A stretch of 28,229 nucleotides of DNA from a virus, in IMG/VR virus record IMGVR_UViG_3300010392_000616, positions 1-28,229 of that record; one strand, 5' to 3'. Positions within the stretch are counted from its first letter, which is position 1. Every line of letters begins with the position of its first letter. This document shows positions 10,346 through 23,874 of the stretch, one piece after another. The notes below the pieces were generated by a model. That model was not told the origin of the DNA. It saw only the letters and a list, made by a program, of their open reading frames with translations, and searched no databases. The translations under genes and the position numbers were made by a program.

Positions 10346-11257
10346 TTAGATACCGTCTAATTCAATAGCTGATAATGGATAGTACATATTAACACCAGCT
10401 GTCTTACCCCATGCTGGTACTAATAACTCCAAACCACGTTCTTGTGGTGGCAAAAATTCCAACTCTTTTACAATTTCGAGTTGCAATTTGTCTGGATCGT
10501 TTGTGTACAAATAAGCGCTTCGAGAACCAGTGGCACCAACAGACAATTCATTAACGGGTCTAATGCTATTCAAACCAGCAACATTTTTCATTATGAATTG
10601 CAGAATGGTGGTATCACTTACGTTTGATCGAGGCGTACCATTAATGTGGTTGAATTCCTGTACTGGAACCAATAAGTCAGCTGGGTGTTCTTTTAACCGT
10701 GTCGTTTCAAGGACGGTACCCATTAAGCTATTAATATCCAGTATGATTTCATCTGCGGTGCCACCGAGCCATCCACCGGTTGTTACTGATGAAACCGAAG
10801 GTATGTTTGCATTACTTAAGAAGCCAGGCAAACCAGATACCGCGTCACCATTCCAAGCAACATCATCAACCTTTTCTTCCCACGCGCGTTGTACAGCATT
10901 TGCACGACGTTGATCAAGCGGCAATCCTGTCATTTGTGCTTTCAATATTTCATCTCGGTTATAACCAAAAGATGAACCGATAGCGCGGACAGGAATAATC
11001 ACTTCTTTCGCTGTGATGTCAGCGCGTGGTAAGTCATGGGCATAGGCCGCAATAATTTTTGCCATACCAATCATGTCATACACGCGATAGGTGATAGTAT
11101 CAGACCCTTCTGGAGCGTCATTTGATACCGGGAATACCTCACGTGCGATCAGGTCTTGATATACAACATCGTACGATTTGGCCTTAATGAACTCAAGCTG
11201 ACGAGCAAAAAATGCTACGCCGTCAGCGTCAAGTATTGTTACGTTTTGGAATTTCAT
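10346..11257 (-). CDS. Major capsid protein (DUF2184)
   Basis: I read the start at ATG 11257 because GGAGAAG lies seven bases upstream; the frame is open further but would overlap the cement gene. The product has 303 residues. It has the capsid family pattern of an N-arm (FFARQLEFIKAKSYDVVYQDL), then PEGSDTITYRVYD, RSFGYNRDEI-like (SSFGYNRDEILKA), NAVQRAWEEKVDDVAWNG, and a GLPGFLSNANI loop. It closes with PPQERGLELLVPA. These fit the HK97-fold DUF2184 capsid proteins paired with DUF1073 portals and DUF2213 proteases. The following terminator suggests a high-dose transcript. Confidence 0.9.
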   Translation of the reverse strand: MKFQNVTILDADGVAFFARQLEFIKAKSYDVVYQDLIAREVFPVSNDAPEGSDTITYRVYDMIGMAKIIAAYAHDLPRADITAKEVIIPVRAIGSSFGYNRDEILKAQMTGLPLDQRRANAVQRAWEEKVDDVAWNGDAVSGLPGFLSNANIPSVSSVTTGGWLGGTADEIILDINSLMGTVLETTRLKEHPADLLVPVQEFNHINGTPRSNVSDTTILQFIMKNVAGLNSIRPVNELSVGATGSRSAYLYTNDPDKLQLEIVKELEFLPPQERGLELLVPAWGKTAGVNMYYPLSAIELDGI

Positions 11258-11294
11258 TTTTGCTTCTCCAATATTAAATAGTCGAATTACATTA

Positions 11295-11762
11295 TTACGA
11301 TGGGGTGTTAAGACGCAGCAAACCCAATTCACCAGCGGCGGTATCTGTTTCCAATGTACCAACATGAAATTCACCGGCACCTGGAGTGCCAACATTAAAA
11401 ACACCAGTCGCTTCAATCATGTAAATTAGATTACTTCTAACTCCACCGGCAGCTAATTCGACCCATACCGAACCCTCGCGAATTATAGCCATGGTTTGTT
11501 TTTCGGCGTACTGTTCTTCTTCAGCACCAGCGACCGAATTTTCTTTTGCGGTATGTCGAGTAGCAACACCAAGGAAACCAAGGCCAGCCGTTCCAGATCC
11601 TAATACAGCATCACCTTCAGCGGTACCGTGTTGAACGCCAAGACCAAATGGAACAATGCCGGTTTCGTTAGTGTAAGACTCTATTCGATACGGACCAAGG
11701 TCTGACACCAAACCAACTAAGGCGTTTCGTGTGTTTTTCGTGTAAGTAAGCTGTACACTCAT
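11295..11762 (-). CDS. Capsid cement/decoration protein (Gp24-like)
   Basis: The 155-residue protein is Gly- and Ala-rich, all-beta, and lies between protease-scaffold and capsid genes, the standard site for the structural cement protein of this capsid family. It shows YTNETGIVPFGLGVQHG, then GLGFLGVATRHTAKE, and AIIREGSVWVEL, the last being the most conserved strand of cement proteins. Such proteins bind at capsid inter-capsomer sites after expansion. GGAGA lies seven bases before the ATG. The C-terminal loop region has several Gly-Thr steps. Confidence 0.78.
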   Translation of the reverse strand: MSVQLTYTKNTRNALVGLVSDLGPYRIESYTNETGIVPFGLGVQHGTAEGDAVLGSGTAGLGFLGVATRHTAKENSVAGAEEEQYAEKQTMAIIREGSVWVELAAGGVRSNLIYMIEATGVFNVGTPGAGEFHVGTLETDTAAGELGLLRLNTPS

Positions 11763-14137: not shown

Positions 14138-14309
14138 CTCGCGCAATCTCCAAAATAGTTGTTAATGAATCGTTTATAAGATTAACGCTTGTTAATAAAC
14201 TCTGTCGCAAATAGATATCTATGCATTGTTCTATATCCAACGTGATATCGAAGTTCTGTTTTACAGATTTTTGTAACTCAATAGCCCCATCAACAGCGTC
14301 GATCATCAT
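14109..14309 (-). CDS. Small protein between portal and MuF, unknown function
   Basis: The 66-residue acidic protein is mostly helical (AIELQKSVKQNFDITLDIEQ, then LLTSVNLINDSLTTILEIA). The start is coupled to the portal stop by TAATG, and a second in-frame ATG follows at once. Its 3' end runs into the MuF gene start. I do not recognise the family. Its gene arrangement suggests a real gene rather than a chance frame, as it fills the gap between two essential genes exactly. Confidence 0.55.
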   Translation of the reverse strand: MMIDAVDGAIELQKSVKQNFDITLDIEQCIDIYLRQSLLTSVNLINDSLTTILEIARDERDNPTYG

Positions 14310-15796
14310 TATTCTTGCTCCCCTTTTATTTGGGTTCTATCACCGCCGCTATCACGTTCTTCATCTTTTTTATCGATTTTTCGATCTTTTCTATCAAGCT
14401 CGTCCTTACGAGTCTTTACTCCGCCAACAGGGTATCGTTCAGTCCCTTCTTCTGAATTACCATCTTCATCAAACCCACCGTCTTCATCAAAATCATCACC
14501 TTCCGGTGGTAACATATCGAGATTGCTAATATAATCAGCATCAATGGCTGAATACGTGTCATCAAGCGCCAATTCAGTAGCAACAACACCTTCTCCAATA
14601 ACGCCGCGATCAAGATAAGCTGAGTCGCGTTGAGATTTAATCAATTGTAAGTCGGCTTGTTCTTTTTCGTTCATTTGCCATAGTGAATTAAATCTAAACT
14701 GCAATTCTCCATCGCTAGGTGGTTTGCCAAAAGTTGACCTATATATAAGTTCATCAATAAGTTCTAATTTTGATCGGAGGATTAATTCTTGCTGCCCTGC
14801 AATAAAATCGTAGTAATTGCGTATATCGCTGGTGCCAGTAGAGTTTAATCCGCCAGGTGATTGCCCTAATAAGCGTGTGATAGGGATATCCGCCGCGCCT
14901 GCAACGATATTCATATACTCTTGCATTACGTCGCGCAAGCCTGCCAAATTTTGTTGGTGCGTTTCATATTCTTCGTCAGCATCAAGTATAAGCATACGGT
15001 TCACAGATTTTTGCAGTTTAGCAACAGCAAATCGTTTTCGAAGAATATCTTCTCCTTCACTAGAGCTTGCCATTTCCATAAATTCAGGAATTTTGACAAT
15101 GTCAACGCTTGCTTCATAAATAAGATTATTTACATTGTCTTGGGATGAACTGGCGTTTTTAAGTGCATTATATAAGCGTTCTATAATTGACTTACCCCAA
15201 TAATTATTACGTCGTCGAGCTGCTAACGGTAGAGGGATACCTTCAAACCGAATAATCCGTGAAAAATGAATATAAATAGAACTTGGCGCCATACTGTAGA
15301 ATTCAGGATAACCATAATTCGTGCTAAAAGGATCTTGGCTATAAATTCTTGGTTTTAAATATTGTGAATCGGATACATGCAACCATCGCAACCCATCCTT
15401 TTTAATATTTTCAATATTCAATAGTTCCCATGGTTCATTGCCGTCATCGGCATTTATAACAATACCGGCGCCACCATAAATCCTAGAATACACAAGAGAT
15501 TCTTTTATTTTATCGCGTATATTAAATTTATCTTCGGCAGTTTTAAATTCCGTTAATTTATTTGGGTCTATACTTCCATCGAATTTACGCCATTCTCGCG
15601 TCATATCAAAAGGCGGTACATCACACACTTTTCCTGTTAGCCAATCGCTTGAATAAGCGTTTTCTAATTCACCGTATGTCAGCTCAGTTTCAACAAAACG
15701 AGCATAAGTAGACTTATCCATACCAGGTATACCAAGACCTGTTTCTATATTTTGCAATGCATCAAGTATCAATGCTTGTACTTCAACGCCTTTCAT
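14309..15796 (-). CDS. Portal protein (DUF1073)
   Basis: The 495-residue protein matches the DUF1073 portal family. It starts with ALQNIETGLGIPGMDKSTYARF, followed by LTYGELENAYSSDWLTGKVCD and MTREWRKF. Next come LVYSRIYGGAGIVI, the long stem helices with MQEYMNIVAGAADIPITRLLGQSP and LNSTGTSDIRNYYDFI, and then LELIDELIYRSTFG. From about 420 the C-terminus is a highly charged tail of Asp/Glu then Lys/Arg/Asp. The portal is the dodecameric DNA gate at the vertex. Coupled by TAATG at both ends. Databases sometimes label this family 'Acb1'; no Acb1 nuclease motif is visible here. Confidence 0.92.
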   Translation of the reverse strand: MKGVEVQALILDALQNIETGLGIPGMDKSTYARFVETELTYGELENAYSSDWLTGKVCDVPPFDMTREWRKFDGSIDPNKLTEFKTAEDKFNIRDKIKESLVYSRIYGGAGIVINADDGNEPWELLNIENIKKDGLRWLHVSDSQYLKPRIYSQDPFSTNYGYPEFYSMAPSSIYIHFSRIIRFEGIPLPLAARRRNNYWGKSIIERLYNALKNASSSQDNVNNLIYEASVDIVKIPEFMEMASSSEGEDILRKRFAVAKLQKSVNRMLILDADEEYETHQQNLAGLRDVMQEYMNIVAGAADIPITRLLGQSPGGLNSTGTSDIRNYYDFIAGQQELILRSKLELIDELIYRSTFGKPPSDGELQFRFNSLWQMNEKEQADLQLIKSQRDSAYLDRGVIGEGVVATELALDDTYSAIDADYISNLDMLPPEGDDFDEDGGFDEDGNSEEGTERYPVGGVKTRKDELDRKDRKIDKKDEERDSGGDRTQIKGEQE

Positions 15797-16140
15797 TAAG
15801 GAATCCCTTGAGGTATAAGCACCCTAGAAATATTAAAATCATATGTTCCAGGTACTTCGTCAGAATTTTGATTAAAGTACCCAACCACACTTAACCGTCG
15901 ATACTCAATAAAATTATCAGGATTAATCATATCGGTATCAGTCATTTCTATTTTAATCTCAGCAATACCGTCTAACGGCACGGTGAAATAAGTATCAGGA
16001 CGCACCTCAACGGCAACACCAGATGAGATATCATCAATGCGGTATTTTGCCTGCATTGGTGGCTCTGGATCGTGATTTGTGTTGTAAAAAGCAACTTTTA
16101 AAAAACCTGTTGCCCGTTGAGGTAGCGTTCTATTATCCAT
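15796..16140 (-). CDS. Small beta-sandwich virion accessory protein, unknown function
   Basis: The 114-residue protein contains PMQAKYRIDDISSGVAVE, a VPLDGIAEIKIEMTDTDM strand pair and ERRLSVVGYF-like residues (EYRRLSVVGYF). This YRIDD ... E.R.V.V ... F pattern is seen in Ig-like accessory proteins next to phage fibre genes. The start has no strong ribosome binding site. It overlaps the portal start by TAATG. It may contribute to a surface attachment, but I cannot name the function. Confidence 0.55.
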   Translation of the reverse strand: MDNRTLPQRATGFLKVAFYNTNHDPEPPMQAKYRIDDISSGVAVEVRPDTYFTVPLDGIAEIKIEMTDTDMINPDNFIEYRRLSVVGYFNQNSDEVPGTYDFNISRVLIPQGIP

Positions 16141-16151
16141 AATCGTATCTT

Positions 16152-16682
16152 TTATGTCAGAGTGATACTAAGATCAAGTGTCCAAACCTGGCCGTTTGCT
16201 TTAACGCCTTGAGAAGATACTTTACGGTTCATGTTTATACCTGTTGTTCCTGGGTCTCCATTTGCAACTGCAAATTCATTCCATGCATTGTTTGCTGTTG
16301 ACCCATCAAAAACACCACGAAAGGTTAGTGTTTGCGCCGATAGTTGTGGGTAAGATGCTTCCATTGTGACGTAATCAATAAGAGGCCCGGTCAATGTTGT
16401 GTCAGAAGGGCTTTCTGCAGCGGCACTATCGCCAACACCAATTTGGGCGTTCGCATTACTGTAAGCAACACCACCGCCTAAATCAGCCACTAATGTCCAA
16501 ATCTCAGCGATACCAACATTAAGAAGAATGTTGTCAGGAATTTGAATAACATCGTAAGGGTTAAAGTTACGATTACCATCCAAGTGAAGACGCGCTGCCA
16601 TTAATGCGTCAACATTGTTTTGTGCGATAAATTTACGAATTATCCAGCTTGAATTATGTTTTGCGTATTCATTATGTTCCAT
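16152..16682 (-). CDS. Putative virion surface/fibre-associated protein
   Basis: The 176-residue protein reads like a widespread phage family found beside fibre-like genes. It shows IGVGDSAAAESPSDT, then MEASYPQLSAQTLTFRGVF, followed by ANNAWNEFAVANG and a final NRKVSSQGVKANGQVWTLDL. The pattern suggests a beta-rich virion protein; the family is known to me only as uncharacterised. It overlaps the large repeat protein by 11 bases at its start and precedes the small Ig-like gene by 11 bases. Confidence 0.55.
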   Translation of the reverse strand: MEHNEYAKHNSSWIIRKFIAQNNVDALMAARLHLDGNRNFNPYDVIQIPDNILLNVGIAEIWTLVADLGGGVAYSNANAQIGVGDSAAAESPSDTTLTGPLIDYVTMEASYPQLSAQTLTFRGVFDGSTANNAWNEFAVANGDPGTTGINMNRKVSSQGVKANGQVWTLDLSITLT

Positions 16683-19600
16683 CGGTGTGGTCCTCTGAGG
16701 TGTTTAAGTTAAAAAGAATGCGTCTTAATCTCATGTCAAATAAAACATTGACTAGTTTTTGCTTATCGTCGTAAACAAATTTTATATCTGCGTCTGATGC
16801 GTAATCGTATAAAATAGTTTCAGTGGATATTCCGACAGATTCTATACTTGTTCCAACATCAAGAACACTTCCTTTAACCTGAGTTATATTCACGTCACTT
16901 AGACCAGTAGCGTTGTCATGGCCATTTACAACCAAAGTTCCAACAACCGCCGTCTGTTCAACAGATGAATATGTATCATCTATTACAAATAAAACATTTT
17001 CTTCTGAAGTGGATTCTATAGATGTTGATATATCTAACACAATTGAGTCAGTATAAATTAGTGTATTTTCCGTGATTGTTGCTGAATCAAAGACTGAGTG
17101 TGCCTCAATAACAAAATCATCAAGCGATTCCGAGGAAAATAAGTTTTCATTTACAGCTAGGCTGGCTATAACATTAAGTTCATGTATAGTTAGTCCAGAA
17201 TCATTAGTAGGGACTATGGTTGATGTGATTGGTAAATCAAATGATCCTGTGGCGTTATCTTGTTGTGATAAAAAATTATTAATTAAATTATAATCAACAC
17301 CATTTAGTTGATCTGTTACGCTTGTCGATTGAGTTATCAATAAACTTTCTATAACAGAAGCGCTATCTGTTTCTTTAAATGGATCAATATTTACTGACAG
17401 ACTTGTTGTTTCAGCTCCACTTTCAGTATGACCTAACAAGTTATAAATTATAGTAAATTCATTACTCAATAATGAATCAGAAGCACTAGCACCTTCGGTG
17501 TCGATAAATAAAGATTCATTACTACCAACAATCGTTGAAACGAAAGCGTTGGCAGTAAAATTAGAAAGTTCTTCAGAAACATTAGTAAGTTGATCGCTAA
17601 TAACTAACAGTTGAAGTGGAAAAAGAAGTTCATCATTAGATGATAAACTCTCTGATGAGCTTACGCTTGCGTTGATGGGTGATAAAAATGATTGTCCAGA
17701 TGCTACATCAAGAATTTCTATAGGAGAAACGCTATTGATTATTTCATCAGATAATAATGCTGTTTCGCTAATAGCAACGAATTTTAAACCGTCCTTATCG
17801 ATAAAAGTAGTTGAATATCCAATAGCAGAATCATTCGCTGCTAACGTTGCTTGAATCAAAGCGACATCTAAAGCGCTTTGATTATTATCAGTAACAAAAT
17901 GGAGTCTATCTGATACATCACCAACATCATCAGATGTTATTGGATCATCACTTAATCCTAATGACACGCTGGCAAAAATTGGTTCTGAAGATGTTCGTAA
18001 GTCAATAACACCGCATGATGATGTAATTAAAACGCTTTCACTAGATGTTCCTGAGTCACTTGCAGTGCATATTTTAAATGGTACGTTTTCATCATCAACA
18101 GCCGCATCAATTGAGTCTGCAACAGACAAATCAACCTGACTAAATGGTAATTCAACGACAGTATCAGTGGATTCCTGTATAGGGGTATATGCAATACTTG
18201 AATAATCTTCAGATATAGTGCCGGTATCTAATGGGGTTATAAGCCCGTTAACAGATGGTGTTTCATCAGATCCAGAAACGGTATCGGAAGTAAATGCACT
18301 CATTTTAGGATGAATAATTTCTGTATTACCCGCAAACTGTAGAACATTTGCTTCAACAGTTAATGATGAAACAAATTGAATTCCGACACCTACTTCATTA
18401 ATGGATATAAGTACTTGTACTGATGTTTGGTCATCACTGGTAGGTGAATCATCAAGTAAAGCGGGTGAGTTGAAACCAAAGATTTCTGATGTTGCCGTAC
18501 CGGAATCAGATTGTGACGCATCAACATCAATCGTTAAGCCTGTTACATCTCCACTAATAGATTCATTTACAAGTATTTCTGTTGCTTGAGGTTTTTTCCA
18601 CTCTATTATAGTGACATCTTTTCTTGAAAAAATTGTTGCTTGTGTATCGTTTTGTTCTCGCGCTCCGCCAAATCCATAGGTTTGATTTTGCCCTTGACCA
18701 GATACGGAAGACCCTAAAAGCGTGAATGGTAATATATCGTTAGCACTCCTAAAGGTAGTTCCACAAAATTCTTGAGCATTCTTGTTTCTAGTCGTGTCGT
18801 ACAATCTGTACACAGATTGATCTGACACAGAACTAGTTTCAACAATTGCGTTAGCAATTACTAAATGAGAAGAATTTTCTTCAGATACATGGCTGGTTGG
18901 TGTAATTATAGCTTGATAAGTAGGGTAATTAGTTGATGGTACGCTTGTTCCAAGTGCGGTGTTGGTCGTGAATTTAACAAAGGAACTTGCTTTTAATGCA
19001 AGAATTTTTGTTCGTCTAAACCCTGATGTTGCTGATAATGCATAAACATAAAGATCTATATCAACGCTTGCGCCACCTATAAAATTATGAACTCTAGAGT
19101 AAGACCAAGGCCAATATTCATCAGCATTATCAAGTGTGAACATTGTTTCAATTTTTTGTCCAACCCCATTTATTCTAAGCTGAATAAAAACGTCACTTGA
19201 AGCATTATTGGTATCAAATTCTGTGGACGCAAAAATAATATAGTCATCAGTACTGTCTGGTGTGAACGTCAAAGTTGTGACGACTGTGTATATACCAGAC
19301 GGTATTGTGAATTCATCTGTATCGCTATTATGTTGCCTGAAATGGTAATCAGAATTTTCTACCCAATCATCCAGAGGTGCAGCAACAAGACTACCATTTA
19401 AATTATTAAACCATTGATCTTCATCATTATAAGCCTTAACCGCAAGATCATCGGTGCCGTTTGCATCAAGGATATAAAATCCAGCAACCGTTCCACCAAT
19501 AACACCTGGCGTAGTAACTGAACCACCGGCAATTAACCCATCGTGTTTTGCGATGCTAGTTGAACCATAATCTAACTGTGTATGGTTCGCGACTTCGCAC

Positions 19601-20283
19601 CCTTGGCACCAGCTATATAAAACAAGAAATCTTTCGTTATTCGGTAGTTCGTCACTTTTTATCACTAATGGCGATTTTAACGCGGTCCTCGCAAAGACCG
19701 ACCATATATTACTAAAAATTAATGCCTTTGGTATTACTGGATCAACAATAGTGTTCCGTTTTCGAACTCCAAAAGAGGCTTGTTGAGCGTAAAAATCAAA
19801 ATCAATAAGACCTGATTCAGAAACACTAAGCGTTATACAATCGCCGTCGTCAACATCAGAATCCACTATTTGAAAGCAGTACTCAAACTCTACGTTACCA
19901 TCTGCGCCAATATCAAGTGAAGCACTACCAGCAACGCCGTCATTATTATCCATACCGTTATTAACGGATACATAATCACCTGTAGTAATTTGCTGGGTTG
20001 TGTTGTCTCCATCGGTGTAATGAACTGAAGTCGCTAATATGACATCATTGGAAACTGCGGTAACATCAGCCCATGGCACATCATTTTTTCGTACTTGAAG
20101 TTTTGCGGTGAAAGCCTTTTTTGTTCCACCATAGTTATGTATACCAAAACGTAAACGATAATTAGTATCGGTATCTAAAGCTGTTCCTTCGTTTACAAGC
20201 TCGCGCCACGTAGCCCCTGTTTCATTGCCGTCGTCTTCTCTCCATCGAGTTTGGTCTAATTGAATATATGCTTGACCACCCAT
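16672..20283 (-). CDS. Large 1203-residue Ser/Asp-rich repeat virion protein (fibre-like)
   Basis: The N-terminal part (1-180) has a TRWREDDGNETGATWRELVN opening, seen in phage and metagenomic surface proteins. It is followed by a beta-sandwich-like segment (about 190-440, with FTIPSGIYTVVTTLTFTPDS and FIQLRINGVG). Next comes a segment to about 590 with IFSRKDVTIIEWKKP. The rest (about 600-1170) consists of diverged repeats of about 35-45 residues with Ser-Glu and Ser-Asp pairs, such as SLGLSDDPITSDD, ASVSSSESLSSNDE and VNENLFSSESLDDF. No chaperone, lyase or lectin motif is visible. It lies by the portal and terminase rather than at the tail end. I infer a long exposed fibre or head-decorating adhesin. 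Confidence 0.6.
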   Translation of the reverse strand: MGGQAYIQLDQTRWREDDGNETGATWRELVNEGTALDTDTNYRLRFGIHNYGGTKKAFTAKLQVRKNDVPWADVTAVSNDVILATSVHYTDGDNTTQQITTGDYVSVNNGMDNNDGVAGSASLDIGADGNVEFEYCFQIVDSDVDDGDCITLSVSESGLIDFDFYAQQASFGVRKRNTIVDPVIPKALIFSNIWSVFARTALKSPLVIKSDELPNNERFLVLYSWCQGCEVANHTQLDYGSTSIAKHDGLIAGGSVTTPGVIGGTVAGFYILDANGTDDLAVKAYNDEDQWFNNLNGSLVAAPLDDWVENSDYHFRQHNSDTDEFTIPSGIYTVVTTLTFTPDSTDDYIIFASTEFDTNNASSDVFIQLRINGVGQKIETMFTLDNADEYWPWSYSRVHNFIGGASVDIDLYVYALSATSGFRRTKILALKASSFVKFTTNTALGTSVPSTNYPTYQAIITPTSHVSEENSSHLVIANAIVETSSVSDQSVYRLYDTTRNKNAQEFCGTTFRSANDILPFTLLGSSVSGQGQNQTYGFGGAREQNDTQATIFSRKDVTIIEWKKPQATEILVNESISGDVTGLTIDVDASQSDSGTATSEIFGFNSPALLDDSPTSDDQTSVQVLISINEVGVGIQFVSSLTVEANVLQFAGNTEIIHPKMSAFTSDTVSGSDETPSVNGLITPLDTGTISEDYSSIAYTPIQESTDTVVELPFSQVDLSVADSIDAAVDDENVPFKICTASDSGTSSESVLITSSCGVIDLRTSSEPIFASVSLGLSDDPITSDDVGDVSDRLHFVTDNNQSALDVALIQATLAANDSAIGYSTTFIDKDGLKFVAISETALLSDEIINSVSPIEILDVASGQSFLSPINASVSSSESLSSNDELLFPLQLLVISDQLTNVSEELSNFTANAFVSTIVGSNESLFIDTEGASASDSLLSNEFTIIYNLLGHTESGAETTSLSVNIDPFKETDSASVIESLLITQSTSVTDQLNGVDYNLINNFLSQQDNATGSFDLPITSTIVPTNDSGLTIHELNVIASLAVNENLFSSESLDDFVIEAHSVFDSATITENTLIYTDSIVLDISTSIESTSEENVLFVIDDTYSSVEQTAVVGTLVVNGHDNATGLSDVNITQVKGSVLDVGTSIESVGISTETILYDYASDADIKFVYDDKQKLVNVLFDMRLRRILFNLNTSEDHTDGT
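16770..18480 (-). repeat. Diverged ~35-45-residue protein repeats in the large fibre-like gene
   Basis: Repeated phrases of the form xSxSExxxxxxxxxDxxxSx recur in the C-terminal half of the 1203-residue protein, with Ser-Glu, Ser-Asp or Thr-Asp steps and regular hydrophobic strands between. DNA identity between copies is low, so these are old or codon-drifted. I cannot fix exact unit borders by eye. Confidence 0.5.
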
Positions 20284-20693
20284 TATACGTTTACTCCGTG
20301 GTGTTTTCTGTTGCGTGGAGTTTCATCTTTTCTAATGGTGGTTTTTTTTGGAAAAGCAGGATCACTCACTGCTTTCTGCATAATTCTTTGGAATTCTATT
20401 ATTGGGATAGTTCTGGCTTTTACGATTGCATTGATATCTTTAAAATCTGACAAAAGATGATCAACCAAATTAACTTCACCTTCAACACCAACCCAACCAG
20501 TGCTTTTTTTATGTAAGCAGTAATCCCAACCATGCAACATAAAGCTGCCAGCATCTTTTCCGTTGAGATACATATAATTGAATTGCTCGTTCAGCATAAT
20601 GCATTGACAATTAGTTGTTGGGGCTTCCGATGGTTCTCCTTGACTGCTATCAAAAGTAGTACCATCACCATAAAATATTTTCCAACTAATCAT
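20283..20693 (-). CDS. Conserved phage protein of unknown function
   Basis: The 136-residue protein has an opening SWKIFYGDGTTFDSSQGEP. A phrase NCQCIMLNE, then GWDYCLHKKSTGWVGVEG follow, and it closes with KARTIPIIEFQRIMQKAVSD and PKKTTIRKDETPR. Small proteins with this WKIYYGDGSTF start are common next to fibre-like and packaging genes in many phages and have no assigned role. It overlaps the methyltransferase stop by ATGA and the large repeat gene by TAATG, so all three are translated together. Confidence 0.6.
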   Translation of the reverse strand: MISWKIFYGDGTTFDSSQGEPSEAPTTNCQCIMLNEQFNYMYLNGKDAGSFMLHGWDYCLHKKSTGWVGVEGEVNLVDHLLSDFKDINAIVKARTIPIIEFQRIMQKAVSDPAFPKKTTIRKDETPRNRKHHGVNV

Positions 20694-21379
20694 CTTGCAA
20701 ATACCCTATGCTGTTCACTAAACCGGACTCGACCTTGGCGATCAGTAAATTGCTCAACGTAATTCTTAAATTTTAAATACTGAATGCTGTCTGAATATTG
20801 TGGTGTTGTGTATCTATCAGGCGCTCTCATTCCATAATGTTTAAGATAGATAAGCGGAGAATCAGAGTTTATAGTGCCGTTGGCACTTTTTAATGTGCTA
20901 TCTTCCGCCCCATGTGTATCTGCATATAAAAAATCAATTTTGAACCCTAACGAATCAATAGAAGCTGTTTTAATAGATCCATTACCTGTATCTTTAACAA
21001 ACATTTCCTCTGTTCTTCCGATCTTCTCATCCTGTAAATCCCAAGAAATATTTGCGTTAGCAAAGGAAAAATCAACTATAAACTCAGGATGAGTTTTAAC
21101 GTTAACCCATCCTTTATCTATGACATTTTGATCTAACGCTTCTTTTAATATTGGTATAGGCTCGTACACCTCAACAGAGGAATACTTGTCAACAAGCGGC
21201 TCTATCACATACCCAACACCTGGACCACACACAACCGCGCGATTAGTTGATGGTAGTGGGACGACAGAATGTGTTAACGCTTCAGTCAGCCAATCTTGAG
21301 TATATATTGGAGAATCACCATTATAATATTGCATATAATTATCGTTATCAGGAATCCACCAACCGTTAATAAGTTTCAT
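20690..21379 (-). CDS. FkbM-like SAM-dependent methyltransferase
   Basis: The protein has 229 residues. RAVVCGPGVGYVIEPLV is a SAM-binding glycine motif, followed after a strand by VEVYEPIPILKEALDQNV, where the acidic residue usually contacts the ribose. The DSLGFKIDFLYADTHGAED stretch matches the 'D...L..D.IK.D.EG.E' part of FkbM-type enzymes. The target is unknown. Near a fibre-like gene, sugar or protein O-methylation of a virion or host surface component is plausible. It may be started by reinitiation after a nine-residue leader frame. Catalysis is inferred from fold motifs only. Confidence 0.65.
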   Translation of the reverse strand: MKLINGWWIPDNDNYMQYYNGDSPIYTQDWLTEALTHSVVPLPSTNRAVVCGPGVGYVIEPLVDKYSSVEVYEPIPILKEALDQNVIDKGWVNVKTHPEFIVDFSFANANISWDLQDEKIGRTEEMFVKDTGNGSIKTASIDSLGFKIDFLYADTHGAEDSTLKSANGTINSDSPLIYLKHYGMRAPDRYTTPQYSDSIQYLKFKNYVEQFTDRQGRVRFSEQHRVFAR

Positions 21380-21490: not shown

Positions 21491-22069
21491 TTAAAACTGG
21501 TAAACACCTTTAATTACATAATGCTCCATATCCAAATCAATATTATTTAATGGAATAATTGTTGCTTTATGGTCCCTTCTCATGTAATTAATCTCAAGCG
21601 CCCAGTTTGGTGTGAACCAAACAGATACCCCTGTGCTGTACGTTAACCCGATATCGGTAGCGTTATTTGATAACCCTGTCGCCCCTTCCTCTGCAGTAAA
21701 TTTAGTTATAGAATATCCAAGACGTGCGTGAGCTTTAAATGTTGTCGGCCCGGCGGTGGCTACCTGCCAGGCACCATGCAAGAGAAAAGCGGCAGATTTA
21801 CTGGATAGACTAAAATCTAATGGACCGACATTTTTATTGGTTTCTCCGTTATCAGATAACGCAACCTCAAAACTTAACCAGGGGACAGGTAATTGACGGC
21901 CAACCGCTATTTCATAACCGCTCGTTGTGCTGTCAAATAAAAGATTTTCAGGAAAAGGGACATTATAATTCGTAGTTTGTAATCCTATAGACACATAATC
22001 ATTGGCATTTGCAGATACGGTTAAAAACAAACTGAACGTTATCGCTAGTAATAACTTTATGGTATTCAT
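21491..22069 (-). CDS. Outer-membrane beta-barrel protein with signal peptide
   Basis: The 192-residue precursor has a classical signal peptide: a Lys near the start, then LLLAITFSLFLTV and a likely cut after SANA (about residue 22). The mature part consists of alternating strands, such as DYVSIGLQTTNYNV, GYEIAVGRQL, SFEVALSDNG, FKAHARLGYSI, and WALEINYMRRDH. It ends with VIKGVYQF, a C-terminal Phe as used by BAM. I predict eight strands, as in OmpX/OmpW-Ail/Lom size proteins. AGGAGA lies seven bases before the ATG. By analogy with Lom-type proteins it could alter the host surface, but a role in exclusion is not shown. Confidence 0.8.
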   Translation of the reverse strand: MNTIKLLLAITFSLFLTVSANANDYVSIGLQTTNYNVPFPENLLFDSTTSGYEIAVGRQLPVPWLSFEVALSDNGETNKNVGPLDFSLSSKSAAFLLHGAWQVATAGPTTFKAHARLGYSITKFTAEEGATGLSNNATDIGLTYSTGVSVWFTPNWALEINYMRRDHKATIIPLNNIDLDMEHYVIKGVYQF

Positions 22070-22117: not shown

Positions 22118-22324
22118 TTAAATTACTTCCCAATCATCCCCAAAAATATCAAGTTGAGAAGCGAGCCACCCAACAAGATATTTCCCTTCCTGCGTAAACA
22201 TTGCGAGACATGGCTCACAACCTTCAAGCTCCATCATATACACATATGCATCCTTGCCGTTCCACCCTTTCCGACGGCAATACAATCCATCTTTTAAATT
22301 TTGTAAGGCCTCAGAAAAATCCAT
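22118..22324 (-). CDS. tad2: Tad2-like (DUF2829) anti-Thoeris sponge
   Basis: The 68-residue protein starts MDFSEALQNLKDGLYCRRKGWNG when read in two parts: MDFSEALQNLKDG, then CRRKGWNGKDAYVYM. It ends with GWLASQLDIFGDDWEVI. That start (F.EAL..LK.G..V.R.GWNGK) and end (W.ASQ.D..A.DWEV) define the DUF2829/Tad2 family. Tad2 tetramers bind the gcADPR signal of Thoeris, and some members bind CBASS cyclic nucleotides. Length is at the short end of the family. The start is four bases below the cutA stop and has no clear ribosome binding site, so translation is probably coupled. Whether it binds gcADPR is inferred. Confidence 0.85.
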   Translation of the reverse strand: MDFSEALQNLKDGLYCRRKGWNGKDAYVYMMELEGCEPCLAMFTQEGKYLVGWLASQLDIFGDDWEVI

Positions 22325-22327
22325 AAT

Positions 22328-22642
22328 TTATGACACGCATTCATTTACCCAATCAATAAAATCATCAGCACCACCAGCGATATTAATACTTATAATCTCA
22401 GGCATATCATATTCGTGTAATTCTTGAATTAAATTTTCAACAGGGGCTTCCATGTCTTGTGTTGTTTTGATAAATAACATGGATTCTGTTTCTTCCTGTA
22501 TCTCACCTTGCCAATTAAAAATTGAGGTGCTTCCTGGTAATACGTTAACGCATGCTGCCAATGATTTAACTATCAACGCACGCGCTATATTTAAAGCGTT
22601 TTCTTTATCAGGGCAACCTGAAATAATTAAAATTGGGTCCAT
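22328..22642 (-). CDS. cutA: CutA1-like protein encoded by the phage
   Basis: The 104-residue protein has the CutA1 order: SGCPDKENALNIARALI, then LAACVNVLPGSTSIFNWQGE, a ETESMLFIKTTQ strand, and HEYDMPEIISINIAGG. It ends with FIDWVNECV. CutA1 proteins form stable trimers with a PII-like ferredoxin fold; a role in divalent-metal tolerance is suggested for E. coli, but the mechanism is unclear. The usual HPYEVPEI is here HEYDMPEI. The start overlaps the terL stop as TAATG, and the stop is next to tad2. I know of no established role for CutA in phage. A small-ligand binding role is inference. Confidence 0.9.
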   Translation of the reverse strand: MDPILIISGCPDKENALNIARALIVKSLAACVNVLPGSTSIFNWQGEIQEETESMLFIKTTQDMEAPVENLIQELHEYDMPEIISINIAGGADDFIDWVNECVS

Positions 22643-23874
22643 TACGCAACAGCCTTTTTGTAGTCTATAACAGTTTTTGAGATTAACCAGTCATGGCAAA
22701 CTCTATAACCTAATGCGTCTAACGGATGATCTAAGTCTAATGTTTTATCAGGCACGCCATTTCTGTCGTATGCTTGCTGTTCTATACATTCAAGAGTTTC
22801 TGGCGCCGTGTCTTTATTGATTGTTAAAAACCCTTTTTCGAATAAAACGTTAACCGATTGGACACGCTCTTTTACAAGTGGATTACTTTTGAGCGCTTTA
22901 ACTTTAAAGCCTGCTAGTTTCAACAATTTTAAATCAGTTTTGGTCACGCCGGTTGTGTTTCTGTGGCTTGAGCTGGCATCTGGGTAGATCGTTAATCTAT
23001 GCCCATCAAGGCGGTCATTAATTGCGTTTATTAATGATGGTGTGTCGGCATATCCGATCATCTCACCAATTATTTCAAGTTTTTTTCCGTCAAAAGGCGC
23101 GAATATAACCGCGCTCATTTTTCCAACGTTTAAATCAAGACCAATATCAAGAGGTTCGCCTGGTTTAATCGTCCTATTATTAAAATTTACATCACGATCA
23201 AAAAATGGGTAAACAGCACCAGACACCATGTTGACGAAATCACCTAAAATGTAAGCTGAAACCAATTGTTTTGGATATTGAGCTAGTCTTGATTCAACAA
23301 ATCCAGGCGGTAAGTGTGGGTTAGAATAAGTGCTCATTTGAATTATTCGTGAATCTTCAAGTGGCGCTTTTTTAAACAGTTCGTAAGTTCCTTTAAATCC
23401 TTCAGGCGTGGTGGTTACCATTTTTGAATTCTTGCTTCCATCAGGAAAAATAGTACGGCAACGTGCCGAAACCTTTTCCATGACAGTGATTGCTTTTGCT
23501 TTTGGCAATGTATCAAACTCATCCATTACTGCAGAACCGACTTCATACCCAATGATTGAATCTGGGTTATCCATACTGCGACATATAAATTTTCCATACC
23601 CTTGGATATAAATATTGTGTTCTGACTTATTGATTTTGAAGCGTATTCTTAGGTCAGCAAGAATCTCTGAAATTCTTGGGTAAAAAATATCTCTAATGAG
23701 CGGGTATGATGATGCGTAGTACGCTAAATCGACTGTGGGATACTTGAGCTTAAGCGACATTAATTTGGCGCAAGCGGCATTTGTTTTGCCACTGCCAACG
23801 CCAGCCACTAACGCCAGGTATTCGTTATTAGCAACAAAAAAATCAGATTGTGGTTCGGTGAGGTCTATCTGCAT
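22642..23874 (-). CDS. terL: Large terminase subunit
   Basis: The 410-residue protein is a DNA-packaging motor. The ATPase half has Walker A AGVGSGKT (24-31), Walker B SAVMDEFD with Asp118-Glu119, and the coupling TTTPEGF (154-160). The RNase H-like nuclease half has Asp247 in DIGLDLNVG, Asp299 in IYPDASSS and Asp386 in DHPLDALGY. An in-frame stop lies three bases above the ATG, so the start is fixed. AGGA lies ten bases upstream but inside a hairpin. No small terminase gene is adjacent on the upstream side; it must be elsewhere or highly diverged. Confidence 0.95.
   Translation of the reverse strand: MQIDLTEPQSDFFVANNEYLALVAGVGSGKTNAACAKLMSLKLKYPTVDLAYYASSYPLIRDIFYPRISEILADLRIRFKINKSEHNIYIQGYGKFICRSMDNPDSIIGYEVGSAVMDEFDTLPKAKAITVMEKVSARCRTIFPDGSKNSKMVTTTPEGFKGTYELFKKAPLEDSRIIQMSTYSNPHLPPGFVESRLAQYPKQLVSAYILGDFVNMVSGAVYPFFDRDVNFNNRTIKPGEPLDIGLDLNVGKMSAVIFAPFDGKKLEIIGEMIGYADTPSLINAINDRLDGHRLTIYPDASSSHRNTTGVTKTDLKLLKLAGFKVKALKSNPLVKERVQSVNVLFEKGFLTINKDTAPETLECIEQQAYDRNGVPDKTLDLDHPLDALGYRVCHDWLISKTVIDYKKAVA

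Follow-up and report, generated by a model that had tools for sequence, protein, structure and literature searches.

An uncultured contractile-tailed phage carries a gene for a CutA1-family protein, a member of a cellular family that is near-universal and, to our knowledge, without a known ligand or role. The gene, cutA, is the first of eight in a 6.85-kb insert at the junction of the large terminase subunit gene, terL, and the portal gene, and the phage record that holds it is the single one in which we found CutA. We think it reasonably probable (about 0.6) that cutA is an accessory (moron) gene whose product is made late, is trimeric, and carries or buffers a small molecule for the phage or its host.

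The window, that is, the whole stretch of DNA analyzed, comprises all 28,229 bases of an IMG/VR virus record that is classed as linear and is probably a fragment. By Pfam and PHROG matches, it contains terL and genes for portal, head morphogenesis, protease, major capsid, tail sheath, and baseplate proteins, which form a late region on the minus strand. The major capsid open reading frame (ORF) as listed (10346-11416) begins within the gene that precedes it (11295-11762), and its codon usage is odd (z −4.0); the true start probably lies downstream of the listed one. A PADLOC run on the window returned only a Cas5a match, at chance level.

The insert between terL and the portal gene

The nearest relatives found were two viral records, L006 and L007, in which TerL is 58 to 60% identical to that of the window; the portal protein is 54% identical in L005, L006, and L007. 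In both L006 and L007, the portal gene adjoins terL directly and overlaps it (TAATG/TAGTG), the junction reading ...GCATAATG in L007 and ...GCATAGTG in L006. In the window, the end of terL and the start of cutA form a TAATG overlap at 22642, reading GCGTAATGGAC, and a TAATG stop/start overlap also lies at the other end of the interval, where the portal-side junction reads CCTTAATGAAAG. With contig permutation allowed for, the 46.8-kb L007 record had matches to 18 ORFs of the window, which span TerL, portal, head, and tail, but to not one of the eight genes between 15796 and 22642. Because terL overlaps the portal gene in L006 and L007, and because L007 is without all eight genes, these genes are an insert in the window lineage (Table 1).

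Table 1. Genes of the insert and its two borders, listed from terL to the portal gene
Feature	Position	Strand	Product (aa)	Basis and remarks
terL	22642..23874	−		Large terminase subunit; PF03237, E 1.7e-17; phrog_2; upstream of cutA
cutA	22328..22642	−	104	CutA1-family protein; first gene of insert
Tad2-like gene	22118..22324	−	68	PF11195, E 8.6e-20, 71.5 bits versus cutoff of 25
Outer-membrane beta-barrel protein	21491..22069	−	192	PF13505, E 2.5e-10
Possible methyltransferase (weak)	20690..21379	−	229	
136-aa protein	20283..20693	−	136	No Pfam or PHROG match
1203-aa protein	16672..20283	−	1203	No Pfam or PHROG match
Virion-associated protein	16152..16682	−	176	phrog_23653, E 1.3e-41
Last insert gene	15796..16140	−	114	TAATG overlap with portal gene
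Portal gene	14309..15796	−		phrog_146, E 4e-126

The start of cutA occupies the terL-overlap position that the start of the portal gene holds in the nearest relatives. Since terL and the portal gene overlap in the same way in L006 and L007, whichever gene is inserted here inherits the overlap. The overlap places cutA in the late operon and gives no indication that CutA acts with TerL; more generally, a 4-base overlap with terL can come from the insertion site and on its own is no evidence of shared function. The initial annotation described cutA as TAATG-coupled to terL with a Tad2-like gene on its other side, and this is borne out by the junction sequence and by the spacing of the Tad2-like gene, which starts 3 nt past the cutA stop. 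It also took the coupling as a sign of use by the phage and not of chance carry-over. That view keeps the support of an intact CutA, a tight operon, and the absence of a recent copy of any sampled host gene, but it loses the terL overlap as a functional sign.

The TAATG at both ends of the insert suggests block exchange at gene junctions, and we speculate that the motif common to the two ends helped the exchange. The other genes of the insert are a mixed set. The phage-borne outer-membrane protein possibly serves in surface change or in keeping out other phages. The methyltransferase assignment comes from 30.8% identity over 38% of the protein's length to a "putative methyltransferase" of a Pelagibacter phage (E 1e-3). 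The largest protein is possibly fiber-like, judging from its size and its neighbors; for a fiber or surface protein, if it is one, the terL-portal interval is an unusual location. The virion-associated protein is similar to phage proteins of which part are annotated "minor tail protein." The last insert gene had no match in phage genomes, and a 114-aa ORF found between terL and the portal gene in MW202455 is no relative of it.

Identity and origin of the phage CutA

The cutA ORF runs for 104 codons from ATG to TAA, and the plus strand of the same stretch is full of stops. Its product matches the Pfam CutA1 family (PF03091) and no other, with 109.4 bits (cutoff, 22.4), an E value of 8e-32, and coverage of profile positions 2 to 98 of 99. 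It had no match in PHROG. It matches 32 distinct PDB sequences, the top one being Thermus CutA1 (1nza; 8e-24). An AlphaFold2 model of the monomer (pLDDT 96.4, pTM 0.88), when compared with solved structures, gave best PDB matches that were all CutA (TM 0.96 to 0.98, root mean square deviation about 0.7 to 1.1); the predicted fold is thus the ferredoxin-like (PII-like) fold of the family. Near-invariant residues, defined as columns conserved in 13 or more of the 14 other CutAs with the query left out, are all kept (11/11: L-A-A-C, S40, W44, E53, H76, Y78, P81, and W98). The CutA motif pattern occurs once in the window and in none of 100 shuffles. The initial annotation had called the gene CutA1, and the family score, the PDB matches, the predicted fold, and the conserved residues all confirm the call, on the minus strand.

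In Shewanella CutA1, the aromatic residues at the trimer interface are Tyr45, Trp47, Tyr81, Tyr98, and Trp101 (PMC3004244). The five positions, mapped by motif, are also aromatic in the window protein (F42, W44, Y78, F95, and W98), with Phe in place of Tyr at two of them. The phage CutA probably forms the standard trimer.

The closest CutA found anywhere, at 47% identity, is encoded in a Campylobacterota genome, and 22 further Campylobacterota genomes gave matches with E values below 1e-18; the other CutAs compared were 22 to 42% identical to the window protein. A Campylobacterota origin was considered on account of these matches, but TerL matches there reach at most 38%. The codon usage of cutA fits that of the phage core genes (z +2.1; GC content, 35%). 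Because the nearest relative is only 47% identical and the codon usage fits the phage, cutA bears no sign of being a recent copy from any sampled host. This applies to the part of cellular diversity that was covered, namely, a scan of one genome collection and 397 genomes from a single phylum, and a closer host copy may exist.

These properties bear on the possibility that CutA is a passive hitch-hiker that came along with insert genes of the virion or outer-membrane type and has little effect on the phage. That cutA occurs in one record and in no relative agrees with passive carriage, and the TAATG at both insert ends is consistent with a block exchange of that kind. The frame is open, however, the near-invariant residues have all been kept even though nothing found is more than 47% identical, and the codon usage matches the phage. 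Since a long-resident useless gene should decay, the intact state of cutA counts against passive carriage, which we regard as unlikely. The gene looks like a rare accessory gene that has been kept intact; maintenance by selection is suggested by the intact sequence in this one phage record.

CutA in other viral records

CutA is very rare in phages, and the window is the single phage record found to carry cutA among the records searched, from which very close relatives of the window may be absent. No genuine CutA was found in 50,697 phage genomes. Two of the three matches in that collection, AFYI01000007 and AGRM01000005, are Salmonella chromosome contigs of about 501 kb that were filed as phage; in the one of them that was read, the gene order is transporter, cutA, dsbD. 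The third, OR845333, is a 3.3-kb unannotated record that, by similarity, appears to hold a host cutA. A second query, with an actinobacterial CutA, again returned only these three. CutA was absent from 30 related viral records, and single-protein searches of viral contigs with CutA and with the Tad2-like protein returned no relatives. In the BFVD library of viral structures there was no CutA-like protein, the best match having a TM of 0.63 and 18% identity. Nothing relevant was found in the literature on CutA with phage auxiliary genes or with Tad2.

The three misfiled or host-derived records show that such errors occur, and cutA in the window could in principle be an assembly chimera or host contamination. 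We consider this extremely improbable: the gene overlaps terL exactly, is separated by 3 nt from the Tad2-like gene, lies on the same strand as both, has matching codon usage, and has viral genes on either side.

We also scanned 2.9 million viral contigs with a spaced motif (AAC, W, HxY, P) that needs fixed spacing and that recognized every CutA locus then in hand. The scan gave 10 stretches, of which 7 encode real CutA and 3 (L046, L052, and L053) do not. The seven genes mostly lie in host flanking DNA or are ambiguous. In L044, cutA lies 7 nt past a gene that, from its translation, we take to be TrmH-like, in what appears to be a host operon that adjoins a prophage, and the record was rejected as a case of phage CutA. 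L043 was rejected as a second phage case; it has Mu-like genes upstream, but its cutA is without a start codon and at the contig end, and a Mu capsid gene was not found in the record. The surroundings of cutA in L050 are Streptomyces-like, from which the host is presumably of that kind, and in L045 cutA is at the contig end.

Three further contexts are of a different sort. On a 15.7-kb isolate contig (L048:1005-3318), cutA is divergent from a terL-portal pair and about 0.6 kb away from it; a gene transfer agent cluster beside a host cutA would be compatible with a contig of this size. On two actinobacterial prophage-like contigs (L049:1978-2996 and L051:2668-3599), cutA overlaps an upstream XRE-type regulator. 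The two regulators have their C-terminal part in common, a tyrosine or serine integrase is close by, and similar regulators were found on mycobacterial plasmids. XRE-CutA may be a small mobile pair.

Possible roles and comparison with known systems

If cutA is an accessory gene, as we favor, it would be expressed late, together with terL and the genes for the head, and its product would fold as the standard CutA trimer. A small molecule might then be bound at the subunit clefts, to judge from the PII-like fold and from published work on cyanobacterial CutA, and CutA would carry or buffer it for the phage or host during late infection or lysogeny. The title of a structural study of CutA by Selim et al. 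(doi 10.1111/febs.15464), which is cited in PMC7694984, points to small-molecule carrying or signaling. The phage protein is probably still a trimeric small-molecule-binding protein. If what it binds is useful in infection, the same ligand may explain cellular CutA.

The historical name of the family and E. coli genetics point to metal (copper) tolerance, and CutA could confer such tolerance on the host during lysogeny or infection; the outer-membrane protein gene within the same insert would be in keeping with this. However, no metal transporter or sensor was recognized in the window, where many proteins are without any match, and no integrase or repressor was recognized within the 28,229-base fragment. 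Deletion of cutA in Synechococcus left heavy-metal tolerance unchanged, with no metal phenotype (PMC7694984). A role in metal tolerance is therefore very improbable here.

The Tad2-like neighbor raises another possibility, counter-defense, in which the CutA trimer would sequester a nucleotide signal from CBASS, Thoeris, or a related system as a partner of a Tad2-like sponge. The best solved relatives of the neighbor are Tad2 and AcrIIA7 chains. It has 68 residues versus 88 to 104 in most solved Tad2 chains, and it matches solved Tad2 at both ends, with a shortened middle segment. No obvious Shine-Dalgarno sequence precedes its ATG, which makes reinitiation from cutA plausible, so the adjoining pair may be co-translated. 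Some sensors of adenine nucleotides belong to the PII-like superfamily; a PII-like protein from a fungus acts together with a TIR-like HET cell-death protein (PMC10890737), and the co-option of host proteins as sponges has precedent (PMC11722364).

Several results argue against counter-defense. The initial annotation proposed a survey for CutA beside terL or Tad2 in other phages as a check and named a CutA confined to this phage, lacking synteny in relatives, as a refuting outcome. No such neighbor pair was found in related phages, which largely matches that outcome, and CutA recurs neither beside Tad2 nor in phages generally. Because outer-membrane and virion-type genes are also present, the insert is no pure anti-defense island. 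CutA matched none of the known sponge families (Tad1, Tad2, Acb2, and Acb4), and its best folds were all CutA. Its sequence is that of an ordinary CutA in which no novel pocket is evident, and the short Tad2-like protein is itself a putative sponge. We know of no immune-nucleotide ligand of CutA. Counter-defense is thus quite unlikely, and its fullest form, in which a cellular CutA trimer has been recruited as a sink for an immune or alarm nucleotide of the host and is produced in one translational unit with the Tad2-like sponge, is decidedly unlikely. If true, it would add a new fold to the viral sponges, and the ligand would point to that of cellular CutA.

Like the phage sponges Tad1, Tad2, Acb2, and Acb4, the window CutA is a small phage protein, predicted to be oligomeric, that has a Tad2-like neighbor and could act as a small-molecule sink, but it differs from them in fold and family and in not recurring in phages. 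The CutA genes in the seven other records classed as viral (L043 to L045 and L048 to L051) resemble it in that classification, whereas their contexts differ from that of the window. With phage moron genes, the insert has in common that it is a block between terL and the portal gene, is absent from relatives, and includes an outer-membrane protein gene. Classical moron genes have their own promoter and terminator, whereas cutA overlaps terL, and promoter-like sites in the window were in no excess over chance. The CutA1 family itself (Thermus 1nza and E. coli CutA1 1naq) is matched by the window protein in family score, fold, and near-invariant residues. The window protein differs from that family in its phage gene, located between terL and the portal gene, in its identity of at most 47% to any CutA found, and in its two interface replacements of Tyr by Phe.
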